Shown piece by piece: positions 25,177 to 31,263 of a stretch of DNA of 64,000 nt. The notes below the pieces were generated by a model. It was not told the DNA's origin, did no database searches, and saw nothing but the letters and a program-made list of their open reading frames with translations. Each line of letters starts with the position of its first letter. The first letter of the stretch is position 1. A program made the translations under genes and the position numbers. Source of the stretch: Melioribacter roseus (GTDB lineage: Bacteria; Bacteroidota; Ignavibacteria; Ignavibacteriales; Melioribacteraceae); assembly GCA_020723165.1 (NCBI GenBank), contig DYJK01000003.1, positions 1 to 64,000 of the forward strand, given 5' to 3'.

Positions 25177-25524
25177 TTATTTGATCGAAGAAGCGAGTAG
25201 TTTTGAAATAACATCAAGTTCATCAAGAAACCATTTTACTTTTTCGGGTTTTGCTCTTTTACTATCGCGTACCAAAGCAAGCCAAAGTTTACATTCGTTC
25301 GCATATTTCAACGAAGCAATTGTGTACGAATTTAAATCTTTTTTAGTCGTTGAAGCGGTTGCTTCGATATAATTGCTGATAACACTCGTGCCGCTGTTAA
25401 ACAATTCATCACCCATCCGCTGCGAAACATTATCCTTTGGTAATGAATCAATAAACTCGATCAACTTGAGCGTAAGAAAATATAATCTTTTTCTAAATTC
25501 ACCTTTGTTAGTTTCTTTTGTCAA
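25177..25524 (-). CDS. Four-helix bundle protein (23S rRNA IVS/bAvd type)
   Basis: A 115-residue all-helical protein of the family often found inside 23S rRNA intervening sequences or as Avd of diversity-generating retroelements. It has FRKRLYFLTLKLIEFI at the first helix, GDELFNSGTSVISNYIEA in the second, LNSYTIASLKYANECKLWL in the third and a last helix with WFLDELDVISKLLASSIK. Here it is free-standing between hldD and the Nudix gene. No reverse transcriptase, template repeat or rRNA is near, so it is neither a retroelement part nor an rRNA insert. Function unknown. Confidence 0.85.
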   Translation of the reverse strand: MTKETNKGEFRKRLYFLTLKLIEFIDSLPKDNVSQRMGDELFNSGTSVISNYIEATASTTKKDLNSYTIASLKYANECKLWLALVRDSKRAKPEKVKWFLDELDVISKLLASSIK

Positions 25525-25540
25525 TCAATCACCTTCAATT

Positions 25541-26518
25541 TTAAGATAAACCGAGGTAACTATTTTTTAACAAATAATTTTTTACATAATCACTTACACC
25601 TTCATCAACACTCATTATTTTATTTGTGTAGCCGCAGTTTCTTAATTTGGAAATATTCGCTTCGGTGAAATACTGATACCTATCCCGTATCTCTTCCGGC
25701 ATATCGATAAATTCGATATTGACTGGTTTGCCAACTGCCTTAAACAATGCTGTGACTAATTCTATCCATGTTTGAGCTTTACCGGTGCCTATATTGAATA
25801 TTCCATTCACTTCTTGATTCTGCCAGAAATGCAACGTCATATCAACCGCATCTTTCACATAAATAAAATCCCTTTTTTGTTCTCCGTCTTTATAATCATT
25901 AAGATAAGATTTAAAGAGTTTAACCTTACCGGTATCCCTAATTTGTTCAAATGCTTTGTGAACCACACTTCTCATTTCACCTTTATGATATTCATTCGGA
26001 CCATATACATTAAAATATTTCAACCCGGCAACTTTGTTCAGTAAACCATTTCTTTTTATCCAAGTATCAAAAAGATGTTTTGAATAGCCGTACATATTGA
26101 GCGGTTGTAATTCACTCAATTTTGATTCATCATCGTTATAACCTTTTGAACCATCGCCGTATGTTGCCGCAGAAGATGCATAAATAAATCGAATCCCTTT
26201 TTCGAGAGAATACTTAGCGAGTTCTTGTGAATAGTGAACATTATTATCCATCAAGTAATCTGCATCTCTTTCTGTTGTTGCCGAACAAGCGCCAAGATGA
26301 ATTATAGATGAGACTTTAAAAGAGAGATCGGATTGTGTAATCAAATCAATGAAATCATCCTTATGGTAAAAATCTGCATAGTTCAGTCCGTTAAGATTTT
26401 TCCATTTATCATCTGTACCTAGTTCATCAACAATTATAATTCGATCAATTCCAAGTTGATTCAATTTCCAAACAACAGCACTTCCTATAAATCCAGCTCC
26501 GCCGGTAACTACTATCAT
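25541..26518 (-). CDS. hldD: ADP-L-glycero-D-manno-heptose 6-epimerase
   Basis: A 325-residue short-chain dehydrogenase/epimerase. It has the NAD(P)-binding TGGAGFIGS at the start, the HldD-specific VDELGTDDKWKNLNGL, a YASSAATYGDGS segment and the catalytic YGYSKHLFD. The enzyme converts ADP-D-glycero- to ADP-L-glycero-D-manno-heptose, the heptose donor of the LPS inner core. Length is normal for the family. It points to a heptose-containing LPS, in line with the GT9 heptosyltransferase-like gene further on. The gene is divergent from metH; the 115 bases between them hold no recognisable riboswitch. Confidence 0.93.
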   Translation of the reverse strand: MIVVTGGAGFIGSAVVWKLNQLGIDRIIIVDELGTDDKWKNLNGLNYADFYHKDDFIDLITQSDLSFKVSSIIHLGACSATTERDADYLMDNNVHYSQELAKYSLEKGIRFIYASSAATYGDGSKGYNDDESKLSELQPLNMYGYSKHLFDTWIKRNGLLNKVAGLKYFNVYGPNEYHKGEMRSVVHKAFEQIRDTGKVKLFKSYLNDYKDGEQKRDFIYVKDAVDMTLHFWQNQEVNGIFNIGTGKAQTWIELVTALFKAVGKPVNIEFIDMPEEIRDRYQYFTEANISKLRNCGYTNKIMSVDEGVSDYVKNYLLKNSYLGLS

Positions 26519-26633
26519 ATCCTTCTCTTAGATTTATTATATTTGAACGAAAATTAAATATATATTGCTATTGAATCAAAGATAACATTTAGTTTTTATT
26601 CTTTTACCATTATAGAAAGATTATGTAAGAATT

Positions 26634-29600
26634 ATGAAATCCAAATCGGAAATATTAAAAAGCTTGCTGAATGAAAGAATCCTTCTTCTTGACGGATCGA
26701 TGGGAGTATTTATACAGAAATACAAATTATCCGAAGAACAATTTAGAGGGAATAGATTTAAGGATCACCAGGTTGATCTGAAAGGTAATAATGATATTCT
26801 TGTTCTGACTCAACCGGATATAATTAAGAATATTCATAATGAATATCTTGAAGCCGGATCGGATATAATCGAAACAAATACTTTCAACGGGACATCAATC
26901 TCGCAATCCGATTACAAAACCGATCATTTGATTTACGAGATAAACTACCAGGCAGCAAAAATTGCTAAGGTATCTGCTGACGAGTACACGCAAAAGAATC
27001 CGGATAAACCTCGCTTTGTTGCCGGTGCTTTAGGACCAACAAATAAAACACTCTCAATTTCACCAGACGTAAATGATCCCGGTTTCCGCTCTGTTACTTT
27101 CGATCAAGTTGCCAGTGCATTTAAGGAACAAGCAAATGGATTAATTGACGGCGGAGCTGATATTTTACTTGTTGAAACAATGATTGATACTTTGAACGCT
27201 AAAGCTGCACTGTTCGGCATTATGGAATTGATTGAAGAAAGAAATATTGATATACCAATTATGGTTTCAGGTTCGATAATTGATTTGAGCGGAAGAACAT
27301 TAAGCGGGCAGAACACTGAAGCGTTTTGGATCTCAGTCTCTCATACGAAAAATCTTTTGAGCGTTGGATTGAATTGCTCATTAGGCCCAAAACAAATGAG
27401 ACCTTTCATTTCGGAATTATCAAATATTGCAAATGTGTCCATCAGTCTCTATCCCAATGCCGGTTTGCCCAATGAATTCGGCGGTTATGATGAATCACCA
27501 GAATCAATGTATTCCGTTCTTGAAGAATTTGCAAAAGAAGGATGGCTTAATATTGTTGGCGGTTGCTGCGGTACTACACCCGATCATATACGTGCTTTTG
27601 CAGAAATAACTAAAAATCATCCGCCGAGAAAAATTCCTGAAGTTAAACCGTACTTACAACTAAGCGGGCTTGAGCCGCTAATATTTCGGCCTGATACAAA
27701 CTTTGTAAATATTGGCGAGCGGACTAATGTTACCGGTTCTAAAAAATTCGCAAGGTTAATAAAAGAAAATAGATTTGATGAAGCGCTTTCTGTTGCACGC
27801 GAACAAGTGGAAAATGGTGCACAGATTCTTGATGTAAACATGGATGAAGGATTGATTAATTCCGAAGAAGCAATGACGAAATTTCTCAATCTTATTTCTG
27901 CAGAACCGGATATTGCAAAAGTCCCGATAATGATCGATTCTTCTAAATGGTCTGTTATAGAAGCCGGGCTGAAATGTCTCCAGGGAAAAGGAATCGTAAA
28001 TTCTATCTCGCTTAAAGAAGGAGAAAAAATATTTAAGGAACATGCAAAGAAAATACTTAAGTATGGTGCAGCAGTTATTGTTATGTCATTTGATGAAGAA
28101 GGACAGGCTGATTCATTTGAAAGAAAAATCCGGATATGTGAACGTGCTTACAAAATTTTAACTGGTGAAATCGGTTTTTTGCCTCAAGATATAATTTTTG
28201 ATCCCAATATTTTTGCAATCGCTACCGGTATTGAAGAGCACAATCAATATGCACTCAATTATATAGAAGCAACAAAATGGATTAAAAAAAATCTGCCTTT
28301 ATCCAAAGTTAGTGGAGGTGTAAGCAATATTTCTTTCTCATTCCGTGGCAACGATACCATCCGGGAAGCAATGCATTCGGCATTCCTCTACCACGCAATA
28401 GAAGTCGGCATGGATATGGGGATTGTTAATGCTGGTCAGTTAGCTGTATATGAAGAAATTCCAAAAGATCTTTTAGAAAAAGTTGAAGACGTTATACTAA
28501 ATAGAAGGTCGGATGCAACCGAACAATTGATAGAATTTGCATCAACCATTTCGAAAGAAATAAAACGTGATCTAAAAGAAGATCAATGGCGGCAGCTTTC
28601 GGTTGAAGAAAGATTAAAACACTCTCTTGTAAAAGGAATAGTTGAATATATTGAACAAGATTTAGAAGAAGCAAGAAAAAAATATTCGTCACCGCTTAAA
28701 ATTATTGAAGGTCCGCTCATGGATGGTATGAACTACGTGGGTGATTTGTTCGGTTCGGGCAAAATGTTTTTACCACAAGTTGTAAAGAGTGCACGAGTTA
28801 TGAAAAAAGCGGTTGCATCACTAACTGCCTATCTCCCCACCTCTTTCCAACGGAAAGAGGAGAAAGCCGATTCGAAAAAAGAATATCAACATTATAAATT
28901 TGGATGGCAAACTGCTGATCCTTCTCTTTATAATAAATTAAAAGAATTTTCAGAGACCCATCGTAAAAGTCCTACAAAGGCTGAATCGATTTTATGGGAG
29001 TTTTTGAAATCGAAGAAGCTTAAGAATTATAAATTCAGAAGACAACATATAATAGGTTCTTATATTGTCGATTTTGTTTGCTTATCTCAAGCCTTAATAA
29101 TAGAAATTGATGGTTTAATCCATCAGTTACCTGAGAACAAACAATCAGATGAAGTCAGAACAAAATGGTTAAATGAAAATGGGTTTAAAGTAACACGATT
29201 TACAAATGATGAAGTGATCAACAATACAGAAGATGTCTTGAGTAAGATTTTAACAGAGATTAAAAAAAATGAATCTGAAAAAGTCCTCCCCTTAGGGGAG
29301 GATTTAGGTGGGGCTGGAACGATTTTACTAGCAACCGTTAAAGGAGACGTACATGATATCGGTAAAAACATCGTAGGTGTTGTGCTTGGCTGTAACAATT
29401 ATGACGTTATCGATTTGGGAGTTATGGTCCCTTCGGATAAAATACTCTCAGCCGCTGTTGAAAAAAATGTTGATATTATTGGGTTGAGCGGACTAATAAC
29501 ACCATCACTAGATGAGATGGTTCATGTTGCAAAAGAAATGGAAAAACTTGGATTAAAAATTCCCTTGCTGATTGGCGGCGCTACAACTTCCCGGATTCAT

Positions 29601-30767
29601 ACTGCGGTTAAAATTGCCCCGGAATATTCTCAAACAACAATTCATGTTCTTGATGCGTCAAAAAGCGTGGGAGTTGTAAGTAATCTTTTGAATAATCAAA
29701 AAGATACTTTTTCTGATCAAGTGAAAAGTGAATATGAAAAGTTGCGGCTCGACCATTCTAAAAAACAATTAGCTAAAGAGTTTTTGTCTATCGAACAAGC
29801 TAGGAAAAATAAATTAAAACTCGATTGGGAAAATTATTCTGTAGCCAAGCCGATTAAATTAGGAGTCTCTGTACTTAAGGATTATCCTCTTACTGAAATC
29901 AAAAATTATATTGATTGGACTCCATTCTTTTTAACATGGGAATTGAAAGGAAAATATCCGGACATTTTCAATAATAAAAATTTTGGTAACGAAGCAAAAA
30001 AAATATTTGAAGACGCTGACAAACTAATTGATCAAATTATCACTTCAAAATCTTTAGCTGCTAATGCAGTTGTAGGAATCTTCCCGGCAAATGCTGTTGA
30101 AGATGATATAGAAGTATATGCCGATGAAAATCGCAGTGGAATCTTAGAAGTATTCAACACTATCAGGCAGCAAGCAGTAAAATCGAAAGACATTCCTAAT
30201 ATAGCTCTTGCTGATTTTATGGCGCCTAAAAATGTCGGCGTAAAAGATTATTTAGGTTTGTTTGCGGTAACCGCCGGGTTTGGTGTTGAGAACCTTGTTA
30301 AAAAATTTGAAGACGAACACGATGATTATAGCTCAATAATGGTAAAAGCAATTGCAGACCGGTTTGTGGAAGCTTTTGCTGAATTACTACACGAAAAAGT
30401 AAGAAAAGAAATTTGGGGTTATGCATATAATGAAAAGTATTCCAATGAAGAGCTGATAGATGAAAAGTATTCCGGCATAAGACCGGCACCGGGTTACCCG
30501 GCTCAACCGGATCACACAGAGAAAATGAAAATCTGGAAACTGCTTGACGTTGAAAAAAATACCAATATTAAATTAACAGAAAGTTTAGCTATGTACCCGG
30601 CTGCCTCTGTTTGCGGGCTCTACTTTGCAAATCCCGGATCGAAATATTTCACGGTAGGTAAAATCGGCAAAGACCAGGTTGATGATTATAGAAAAAGGAA
30701 AGGAATTAGTTTAAAGGAAGCAGAGCGATGGTTGCGGCCAATACTCAACTATGACGAAATTGAATAA
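26634..30767 (+). CDS. metH: Cobalamin-dependent methionine synthase with an in-frame DUF559 nuclease insert
   Basis: A 1377-residue MetH, about 150 longer than the E. coli enzyme. Domain order: homocysteine-binding (about 10-330, zinc cysteines in GLNCSLGP and [11 protein letters not shown]), methyltetrahydrofolate-binding (345-620, [16 protein letters not shown]), cobalamin cap helices (650-734), then an inserted segment (about 735-893). The B12 domain follows ([11 protein letters not shown], axial His907) and then the AdoMet reactivation domain (1075-1377, [15 protein letters not shown]). The insert carries a DUF559 domain with its PD-(D/E)XK-type residues (IVDF, IIEIDG). It sits in the flexible cap-B12 linker, the one place where extra sequence should be tolerated. 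All MetH catalytic motifs remain, so the enzyme is probably active (inference). Confidence 0.95.
28835..29313 (+). mobile_element. DUF559-encoding element inserted in frame within metH
   Basis: The segment begins with CCCCACCT (28835-28842) and ends with its reverse complement AGGTGGGG (29306-29313). Just inside the left end is a perfect palindrome, CCTCTTTCC-AAC-GGAAAGAGG (28840-28860). Just inside the right end is CCTCCCCT-T-AGGGGAGG (29285-29301). Between them lies a DUF559 domain (about 28933-29268): [30 protein letters not shown] and a C-terminal [10 protein letters not shown]. This is the fold of Vsr-like PD-(D/E)XK nucleases, with catalytic D, E and D kept. The whole 479 bases are open in the metH frame. 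No ATG with a good ribosome-binding site starts the domain separately, so it is probably made only as part of MetH. Confidence 0.75.
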
Positions 30768-30789
30768 TCTAAATAAAGAAAGAAATTTT

Positions 30790-31263
30790 ATGACAAAAAA
30801 AACTTACCGCACCGGGGCGATCGGTGCATTAATGGATGAATACGAACGGGCTGCCGTAGATTTTAAGAGTGTAATTGAAAAATTATCTCAAGATAATTTT
30901 GTTAAAATTTATGATCCCAACACATTCGATGAAGATTGCCGTTCAATAATTACTATAACGAAACATGTTGTAGCTGCCGGTTACCGTTACGGAAATCAAA
31001 TTAGAATTTTCCTGGGATTGGTACCAATTATACCTGAATACAAAATTGAAACCTCCCGTGATGCAATCCGCGCACTCGATAAAGTTCTTATATTCACTGC
31101 AAATACCATAGAAGGCCATTGGAATATGACAGATGATCAAATAATTGCAACACGCCAGGAAACAAAGTGGGGTTTATACGATATCGAAATGATGTTCGAG
31201 CACGCAATTGTTCATCTCCTAAGACATAGAAGACAGATAGAAAAATTTCTAATTTCAGATTAA
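30790..31263 (+). CDS. DinB-family protein
   Basis: A protein of about 157 residues, predicted all-helical. The pattern resembles DinB/YfiT-like four-helix proteins: an N-terminal helix DEYERAAVDFKSVIEKL, a middle histidine in TKHVVAAGYRYG, and a C-terminal EHAIVHLLRHRRQIEKFL with two histidines spaced as in metal-binding DinB proteins. I prefer ATG 30790; an alternative at 30751 overlaps the end of metH and would add 13 residues unlike the family start. Family members are often thiol-dependent metalloenzymes or of unknown role. It follows metH closely and may be co-transcribed. Confidence 0.7.
   Translation: MTKKTYRTGAIGALMDEYERAAVDFKSVIEKLSQDNFVKIYDPNTFDEDCRSIITITKHVVAAGYRYGNQIRIFLGLVPIIPEYKIETSRDAIRALDKVLIFTANTIEGHWNMTDDQIIATRQETKWGLYDIEMMFEHAIVHLLRHRRQIEKFLISD

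Follow-up and report, generated by a model that had tools for sequence, protein, structure and literature searches.

What is a nuclease domain doing in the middle of methionine synthase? In the 64,000-nucleotide stretch of Melioribacter roseus DNA analysed here (the window), metH has a complete domain order according to Pfam and NCBIfam, and its reading frame is uninterrupted over the entire gene (Table 1). The distance between its GKMFLPQ and GDVHDI motifs is 201 aa, compared with 52–54 aa in 24 insert-free relatives. An earlier note on this DNA had placed a DUF559 domain in frame in the linker between the cap and B12 domains of a complete MetH; the Pfam order and the open frame bear this out, and its estimate of about 150 surplus residues agrees with the ~148 that we obtained from the 24 empty linkers. 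The note had also proposed in-frame survival in an essential enzyme, and MetH is indeed the sole methionine synthase detected: MetE (PF01717) was absent from the 98% complete genome, implying that MetH is presumably functional with its insert. While the insert itself is real, treating it as a peculiarity of MetH proved too narrow, because it is one copy of a widespread, palindrome-bounded element whose palindromes, other host genes and free-standing copies had been missed. We interpret it as a homing-type DUF559 element with palindromic ends that resides in frame in proteins without splicing, a reading to which we assign a probability of about 0.7.

Table 1. Features of the metH locus and its insert, in window coordinates.
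Feature	Position	Strand	Basis or remark
metH ORF with in-frame insert	26634..30767	+	1377 aa; NCBIfam metH equivalogs
Homocysteine S-methyltransferase domain (host)	26682..27605	+	Pfam PF02574, S-methyl_trans, residues 17-324
Pterin-binding domain (host)	27714..28430	+	Pfam PF00809, Pterin_bind, residues 361-599
Cobalamin cap, B12-binding_2 (host)	28602..28823	+	Pfam PF02607, residues 657-730
Inserted element, 5' head CCCCACCT to 3' head AGGTGGGG	28835..29313	+	exact tips uncertain by a few bases
5' head CCCCACCT, inverted relative to 3' head	28835..28842	+	sequence
5' border palindrome, stem 9, loop 3	28840..28860	+	hairpin search
DUF559 nuclease domain	28935..29261	+	Pfam DUF559 (PF04480), residues 768-876
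E784	28983-28985	+	conserved residue of DUF559
D813	29070-29072	+	conserved residue of DUF559
E824	29103-29105	+	conserved residue of DUF559
D826	29109-29111	+	conserved residue of DUF559
H830	29121-29123	+	conserved residue of DUF559
3' border palindrome, stem 8, loop 3	29284..29302	+	hairpin search
3' head AGGTGGGG	29306..29313	+	sequence
B12-binding domain (host)	29319..29585	+	Pfam PF02310, residues 896-984
Activation domain Met_synt_B12 (host)	29889..30704	+	Pfam, residues 1086-1357

The DUF559 profile PF04480 matched the window MetH with 119.7 bits (curated cut-off 20.6; E 6.6e-35). The acidic residues, described earlier as intact, are present and conserved: E784, D813, E824 and D826, together with H830, are retained at 99–100% in 102 in-frame and at 100% in 55 free copies, and with D839 added the six residues stand at 98–100% across both sets. 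From the name EDxHD, we take E, D, H and D to be the catalytic motif residues. A structure model of the inserted domain (pLDDT 85.1) found its best match in NGO0050 (3hrl, E 2.6e-8) and also matched the catalytic domain of I-Bth0305I (3r3p_B; Foldseek E 3.5e-5, TMt 0.79; HMMER 2.7e-6), with Vsr matching weakly, after 3hrl and 3r3p. On this model, the insert is predicted to have the catalytic fold of an EDxHD/Vsr-like homing endonuclease. EDxHD enzymes are described, in the accessible text of one study, with an extended DNA-binding region next to the nuclease (PMC3943268); Pfam found no such added region in the insert, only DUF559 and an overlapping MTES_1575 match below cut-off. Of 13 pairs, 11 gave a dN/dS value for DUF559, in the range 0–0.17 (hosts, 0.025–0.16), which shows purifying selection on the domain where it sits. 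VsrA of Caulobacter, which belongs to DUF559, is reported to trigger the SOS response in vivo upon loss of a cytosine methylase, as far as the available part of the report goes (PMC12907096); this makes nuclease activity of the insert plausible, and we infer that it would cut DNA. Three other ideas about the domain were set aside. Release of the nuclease via an internal start was discarded since no conserved in-frame start precedes the domain (ATG in 34 of 91 in-frame copies; ATG, GTG or TTG in 69), and an anti-phage system for want of a PADLOC match. The third was carriage by phages: in the 37 records returned from a phage collection the MetH-like sequence alone matched, which says nothing either way about such carriage.

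We then asked how the insert is distributed among relatives. It aligned at full length in six of 58 genomes, its own included (G000, G017, G034, G042, G046 and G055), and all 24 linkers read in non-carriers were empty. Presence in most relatives with no empty site, the pattern named in the earlier note as the mark of an old fusion, was looked for and not found. The MetH host tree agrees with taxonomy and the carriers are scattered over it: the sister of G000 is the empty G002, with the empty G001 of the same genus adjacent, and G055 is adjacent to G056 and G057, both empty and of its own genus. Empty sites in such close relatives indicate that the insert was gained rather than inherited as an old shared fusion. 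An assembly chimera was ruled out by the presence of an open-frame insert at the same place in five other genomes and in cultured strains, namely Winogradskyella sediminis DSM 28134 (L130), Flavobacterium frigidimaris DSM 15937 (L157) and Salegentibacter holothuriorum DSM 23405 (L138).

Both borders of the insert are G/C-rich palindromes with heads inverted to each other, and the span delimited in the earlier note runs from palindrome to palindrome, CCCCACCT to AGGTGGGG. Only six hairpins with a stem of at least 7 and a GC content of at least 50% occur in the 64-kb window and two of them flank the insert, which argues against a chance arrangement. Palindromic borders were found in all six MetH inserts among the 58 genomes, with letters that vary by genome, and the heads seen at palindromes are C-rich. 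A high-copy repeat built from the window's 3' palindrome was rejected: with its head, and allowing up to 3 mismatches, this palindrome has no further copy in its own genome.

The same element lies in frame in many other proteins. When 395 genomes of the phylum were searched with a profile built from the six MetH inserts, 156 gave a match at E ≤ 1e-15. The profile also matched at least 80 named loci (the best 80 of a longer list), and among the matches listed in-frame DUF559 domains fell into 22 site groups across Bacteroidota. Pfam confirmed them in the linker, activation loop and N-terminal domain of MetH, in the aminoacyl-tRNA synthetases MetRS, LeuRS, IleRS and ValRS, in CinA, RecG, UvrA, adenine deaminase and a methylmalonyl-CoA mutase/MeaB fusion, as well as in an M23 peptidase and UvrD-like helicases; HsdR, a type III Mod-like protein and a second IleRS site were named by reading alone. 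After removal of duplicates (L127, L206-L209, L213 and L232), 91 distinct in-frame copies remained, in all of which the reading frame runs through both borders. A palindrome was present on both sides in 76 of these compared with 0 of 154 control windows from the same ORFs, using a criterion (stem of at least 5, GC at least 75%) that had been loosened because short C5/G5 stems were missed; a stricter pass with stems of at least 6 gave 48/91 and 1/154. In a tree of 157 DUF559 domains, most in-frame copies form one clade together with some free members, the latter sitting at operon junctions. Within this clade the host gene switches between related taxa: in Flavobacterium between the linker and the activation loop of MetH, and elsewhere among MetRS, CinA and adenine deaminase, and among IleRS, ValRS and UvrA.

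Palindromes without DUF559 were also found in frame in ORFs (13 cases), including one in an ORF near the HsdR of L106; this HsdR has a DUF559 insert of its own, and the palindrome is almost identical to the 5' border of that insert. Several loci had unusual arrangements. The HsdR of L108 (G047:C27), which has a DUF559 insert, also contains, by reading, an in-frame GIY-YIG-like stretch whose flanks lack DUF559-type C/G palindromes. A Mod-like ORF at L110 (G007:C1) contains several palindromes of the same type in frame: some are arranged in tandem next to DUF559, and another two lie toward the end of the ORF. At L178, L183 and L184, where free members of the in-frame clade lie at operon junctions, the next gene (KorB-like or ArgG-like by reading) seemingly begins with a translated palindrome.

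Filled, empty and deleted states of single sites were compared in 71 genomes of one genus, inferred to be Flavobacterium because the MetH of G357 is that of F. frigidimaris. Of the 71, 4 carried the insert at the RecG site and 9 carried it in the MetH linker. The filled RecG site retains WKK...IPPH around the insert, and empty states were read at 25 RecG loci and 20 MetH linkers, with site patterns that did not read L256 at RecG and L293 at the MetH linker; the filled metH genes of G357 and G467 are nested in a clade of empty ones. The loop of Met_synt_B12, another site of the element in MetH relatives (e.g. L160), is filled in G480 and G449 and empty in G464, G450, G357 and G471. In G435, this loop contains both palindromes and a few codons, in frame and without DUF559; it is the probable product of an internal deletion, and as such shows the origin of nuclease-free palindromes. 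No target duplication was seen at the RecG and MetH sites, where the insert substitutes for a few codons.

Silent-site divergence pointed to horizontal movement. The RecG inserts of G325, G479 and G133 differ at 2% of silent sites (2 of ~91), whereas their host genes differ at 22–30% (Fisher 2e-10 to 9e-7 against the inserts). Inserts so much less diverged than their hosts indicate recent horizontal spread at one site in three genomes; the other 7 of 10 RecG pairs lacked this signal. The RecG pair G325/G133 gave a slight sign of co-conversion, with identity peaking in the ~90 bp next to the insert, and at the filled metH of G357 no co-conversion tract was found, its flanks matching empty relatives evenly. 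In metH, all 36 pairs showed fewer silent differences in the insert than in the host gene, 26 of them at p < 0.05, with p values uncorrected and pairs that are non-independent and near saturation; amino-acid changes were more numerous in the insert than in the host despite the fewer silent ones.

Free-standing DUF559 genes are accompanied by palindromes as well. A search of 58 genomes gave 104 DUF559 matches, spread over 40 of them, and the flanks of 60 matches, taken best first, were analysed; the 44 left out comprise the weaker matches and some others, and L088 was dropped since the region used cut the gene. A hairpin lay within 250 bp of DUF559 at 54 of 60 loci, with a density of ~1.0 per 250 bp beside the domain and 0.00–0.18 in bins more than 500 bp away. 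For free-standing DUF559 ORFs, a hairpin lay no more than 200 bp from one end or the other in 43/49 cases and at both ends in 19, compared with 94/615 and 6, respectively, for the other genes of those regions. At 25 of 60 loci, the two flanks of a single DUF559 aligned to each other as inverted repeats better than the 99th percentile of 313 controls. The palindromes carry heads of the types ACACCCC, AACTCAYCC, ACCTCACCC and CCCACCCC, motifs that were chosen by eye from the same loci as tested. Mapped on the DUF559 tree, head type requires 10 changes against a shuffled mean of 24.0 (0 of 2000 shuffles that low), and none of 10000 shuffles was that low when each genome contributed a single locus; the test leaves out 18 of the 60 loci, which have no unique head. 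The tracking of DUF559 clade by head type implies that domain and palindromes are a pair, similar to RAYT and REP with another enzyme. Palindromes more than 1 kb from any DUF559 were found in 28 of 40 DUF559-positive genomes (108 copies) and 3 of 18 DUF559-negative ones (3 copies), kinship among genomes being ignored. In L117, L118 and L120, all from the window's own genome, N runs lie within or adjoin palindromes or DUF559 copies, so such repeats may break assemblies or get masked.

We considered that another enzyme, e.g. a RAYT (TnpA-REP), moves the palindromes as mobile units with DUF559 as their cargo. RAYT-like Y1_Tnp genes are indeed present in 53 of 58 genomes, the 13 in-frame palindrome-only cases would fit such movement, and in-frame REP insertions in Bacteroidetes tnpA-REP genes are published, according to the accessible text (PMC6006769). 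However, Y1_Tnp genes here have different palindromes: C/T-armed hairpins occurred at 5 of 36 Y1_Tnp loci compared with 54 of 60 DUF559 loci, and DUF559-type heads at 1/36 compared with 43/60 (4 of 40 Y1_Tnp loci were dropped for short flanks). Seven Y1_Tnp loci (L314, L315, L323, L326, L332, L341 and L343) have repeated palindromes of their own, unlike those of DUF559. Moreover, palindrome number follows DUF559 (Spearman 0.62) above Y1_Tnp (0.28) and head motif tracks DUF559 clade, these comparisons and that with the Y1_Tnp palindromes all ignoring kinship, and Pfam detected DUF559 alone and no HUH Y1 transposase within the insert. We therefore regard movement by a RAYT as unlikely.

It is quite improbable that the insert goes back to an ancient fusion that serves the host, for example a nuclease joined to MetH, RecG or an aminoacyl-tRNA synthetase, and that it descended vertically with many losses. 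The strong purifying selection on the domain would suit such a fusion, as would the clustering of MetH inserts of one family and their partial match with species groups (f1 with f1, f2 with f2), but the unrelated hosts at 22 site groups among the matches listed, the presence in only 4/71 RecG genes and 9/71 MetH linkers of one genus, the much more recent origin of the RecG inserts than of their host genes in three genomes and the palindromic borders all speak against it. Nor do we give much credence to removal of the insert from RNA or protein by a cryptic intron or intein that leaves a normal enzyme, which we consider very improbable. Although the complementary border repeats could pair in RNA, a scan of 26400-31000 against Rfam found nothing at E values up to 1, Pfam detected no splicing domain and the frame is open across the borders in 91 copies. 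A group I or II intron was rejected on the Rfam result and the continuous ORF, and an intein because the metH ORF has no self-splicing Pfam domain.

Based on these findings, we propose that a Vsr/EDxHD-like DUF559 nuclease gene between two palindromes would constitute a mobile unit. This homing-type element would settle in a linker or surface loop of its host without breaking the frame and remain there as an additional domain, with the palindromes translated as flexible flanking linkers. The nuclease, attached to the host protein or freed by proteolysis, would probably cut the insert-free allele or the palindrome; the same-site spread at RecG favours the allele as target, and the tracking of DUF559 clade by head type favours the palindrome. 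Repair of the break from the filled copy would spread the element horizontally to the same site in related host genes, homing being the simplest route, and occasional moves to another gene would probably occur via the palindromic ends. Survival would fall to copies in tolerant loops whose frame is kept, and some would decay through in-frame internal deletion to a palindrome-only remnant. Several results weigh against this model: the lack of a co-conversion tract at the G357 metH, the 7 RecG pairs without a young insert, the absence of target duplication, the variable insertion loops, the missing extra DNA-binding domain, the single-copy 3' palindrome of the window, the partial match of MetH inserts with species groups, and head motifs chosen by eye. 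Such an insert looks like a selfish element surviving as a tolerated part of essential proteins. We say that it would work like a homing element, rather than calling it one, because fold and residues match, the extra DNA-binding region is absent and cleavage is predicted. A broader possibility, which we put at even odds, is a phylum-wide class of mobile elements that colonise essential proteins in frame with a DUF559 nuclease and palindromic ends of their own, their cut-and-copy cycle moving both the nuclease gene and nuclease-free palindromes. This class would be a Vsr-like counterpart of REP/RAYT, and it would not need splicing because its ends read as flexible Pro/Gly/Ala linkers.

Homing endonucleases usually pick conserved sites, whereas the loops entered by the DUF559 element are variable and lack target duplication. 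EDxHD homing endonucleases such as I-Bth0305I share the nuclease fold, the conserved acidic and His residues and a sporadic, site-specific horizontal spread (at RecG here); unlike I-Bth0305I, the insert lacks a group I intron and an extra DNA-binding region, is translated within its host protein and has palindromic borders. Inteins with a homing endonuclease likewise place a nuclease in frame and sporadically in conserved housekeeping proteins, but the DUF559 insert has no splicing domain and is kept in the protein at tolerant loops. To our knowledge, homing endonucleases are thought to require splicing or an intergenic home for entering coding genes. The homing-type nuclease described here seemingly enters housekeeping genes and stays in the protein. 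If this is true, it would explain odd DUF559 domains in bacterial enzymes and give a joint role to an uncharacterised family and a class of Bacteroidota palindromes. It would also make testable whether selfish DNA living as a tolerated protein domain is ever domesticated, and the in-frame sites would represent naturally tested insertion sites and linkers.

Among described systems, the WHO elements of yeasts demonstrate that splicing-free homing into a housekeeping gene exists; as far as the accessible text describes them, they replace the 3' end of FBA1, while the DUF559 element lies within the frame and has palindromic borders (PMC7282813). Rickettsia palindromic elements, likened here by description, also insert in frame into unrelated genes, but measure ~150 bp with no nuclease gene described in the available text, compared with ~480 bp including DUF559 here (PMC10969869). 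REP/RAYT systems, in the part of the source at hand, share headed palindromes, inverted pairs beside the gene, dispersed copies and a palindrome type that tracks enzyme clade (PMC6006769); the enzyme here is PD-(D/E)XK/Vsr-like, not HUH, and the DUF559 palindromes differ from those of Y1_Tnp in the same genomes. Caulobacter VsrA shares the DUF559 domain but is free-standing, with a proposed role in mismatch repair and no in-frame insertion described in the portion available (PMC12907096). A search for DUF559 or PF04480 in the literature that can be searched in full text returned nothing on in-frame insertion or palindromes, and an earlier description is possible.

Two neighbourhoods deserve mention. 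In the window, a TIGR02436 four-helix-bundle protein, of the family familiar from 23S rRNA intervening sequences, is encoded on the minus strand at 25177-25524, 1.1 kb from metH and without adjacent palindromes. A DUF559 clade with AACTCAYCC-type palindromes (L068, L083, L120, L124 and L066) adjoins putative cas genes, named by reading: Cas2-like downstream of L068, L083 and L120, Cas1-like at L068 and L124, and Cas4-like at L066.
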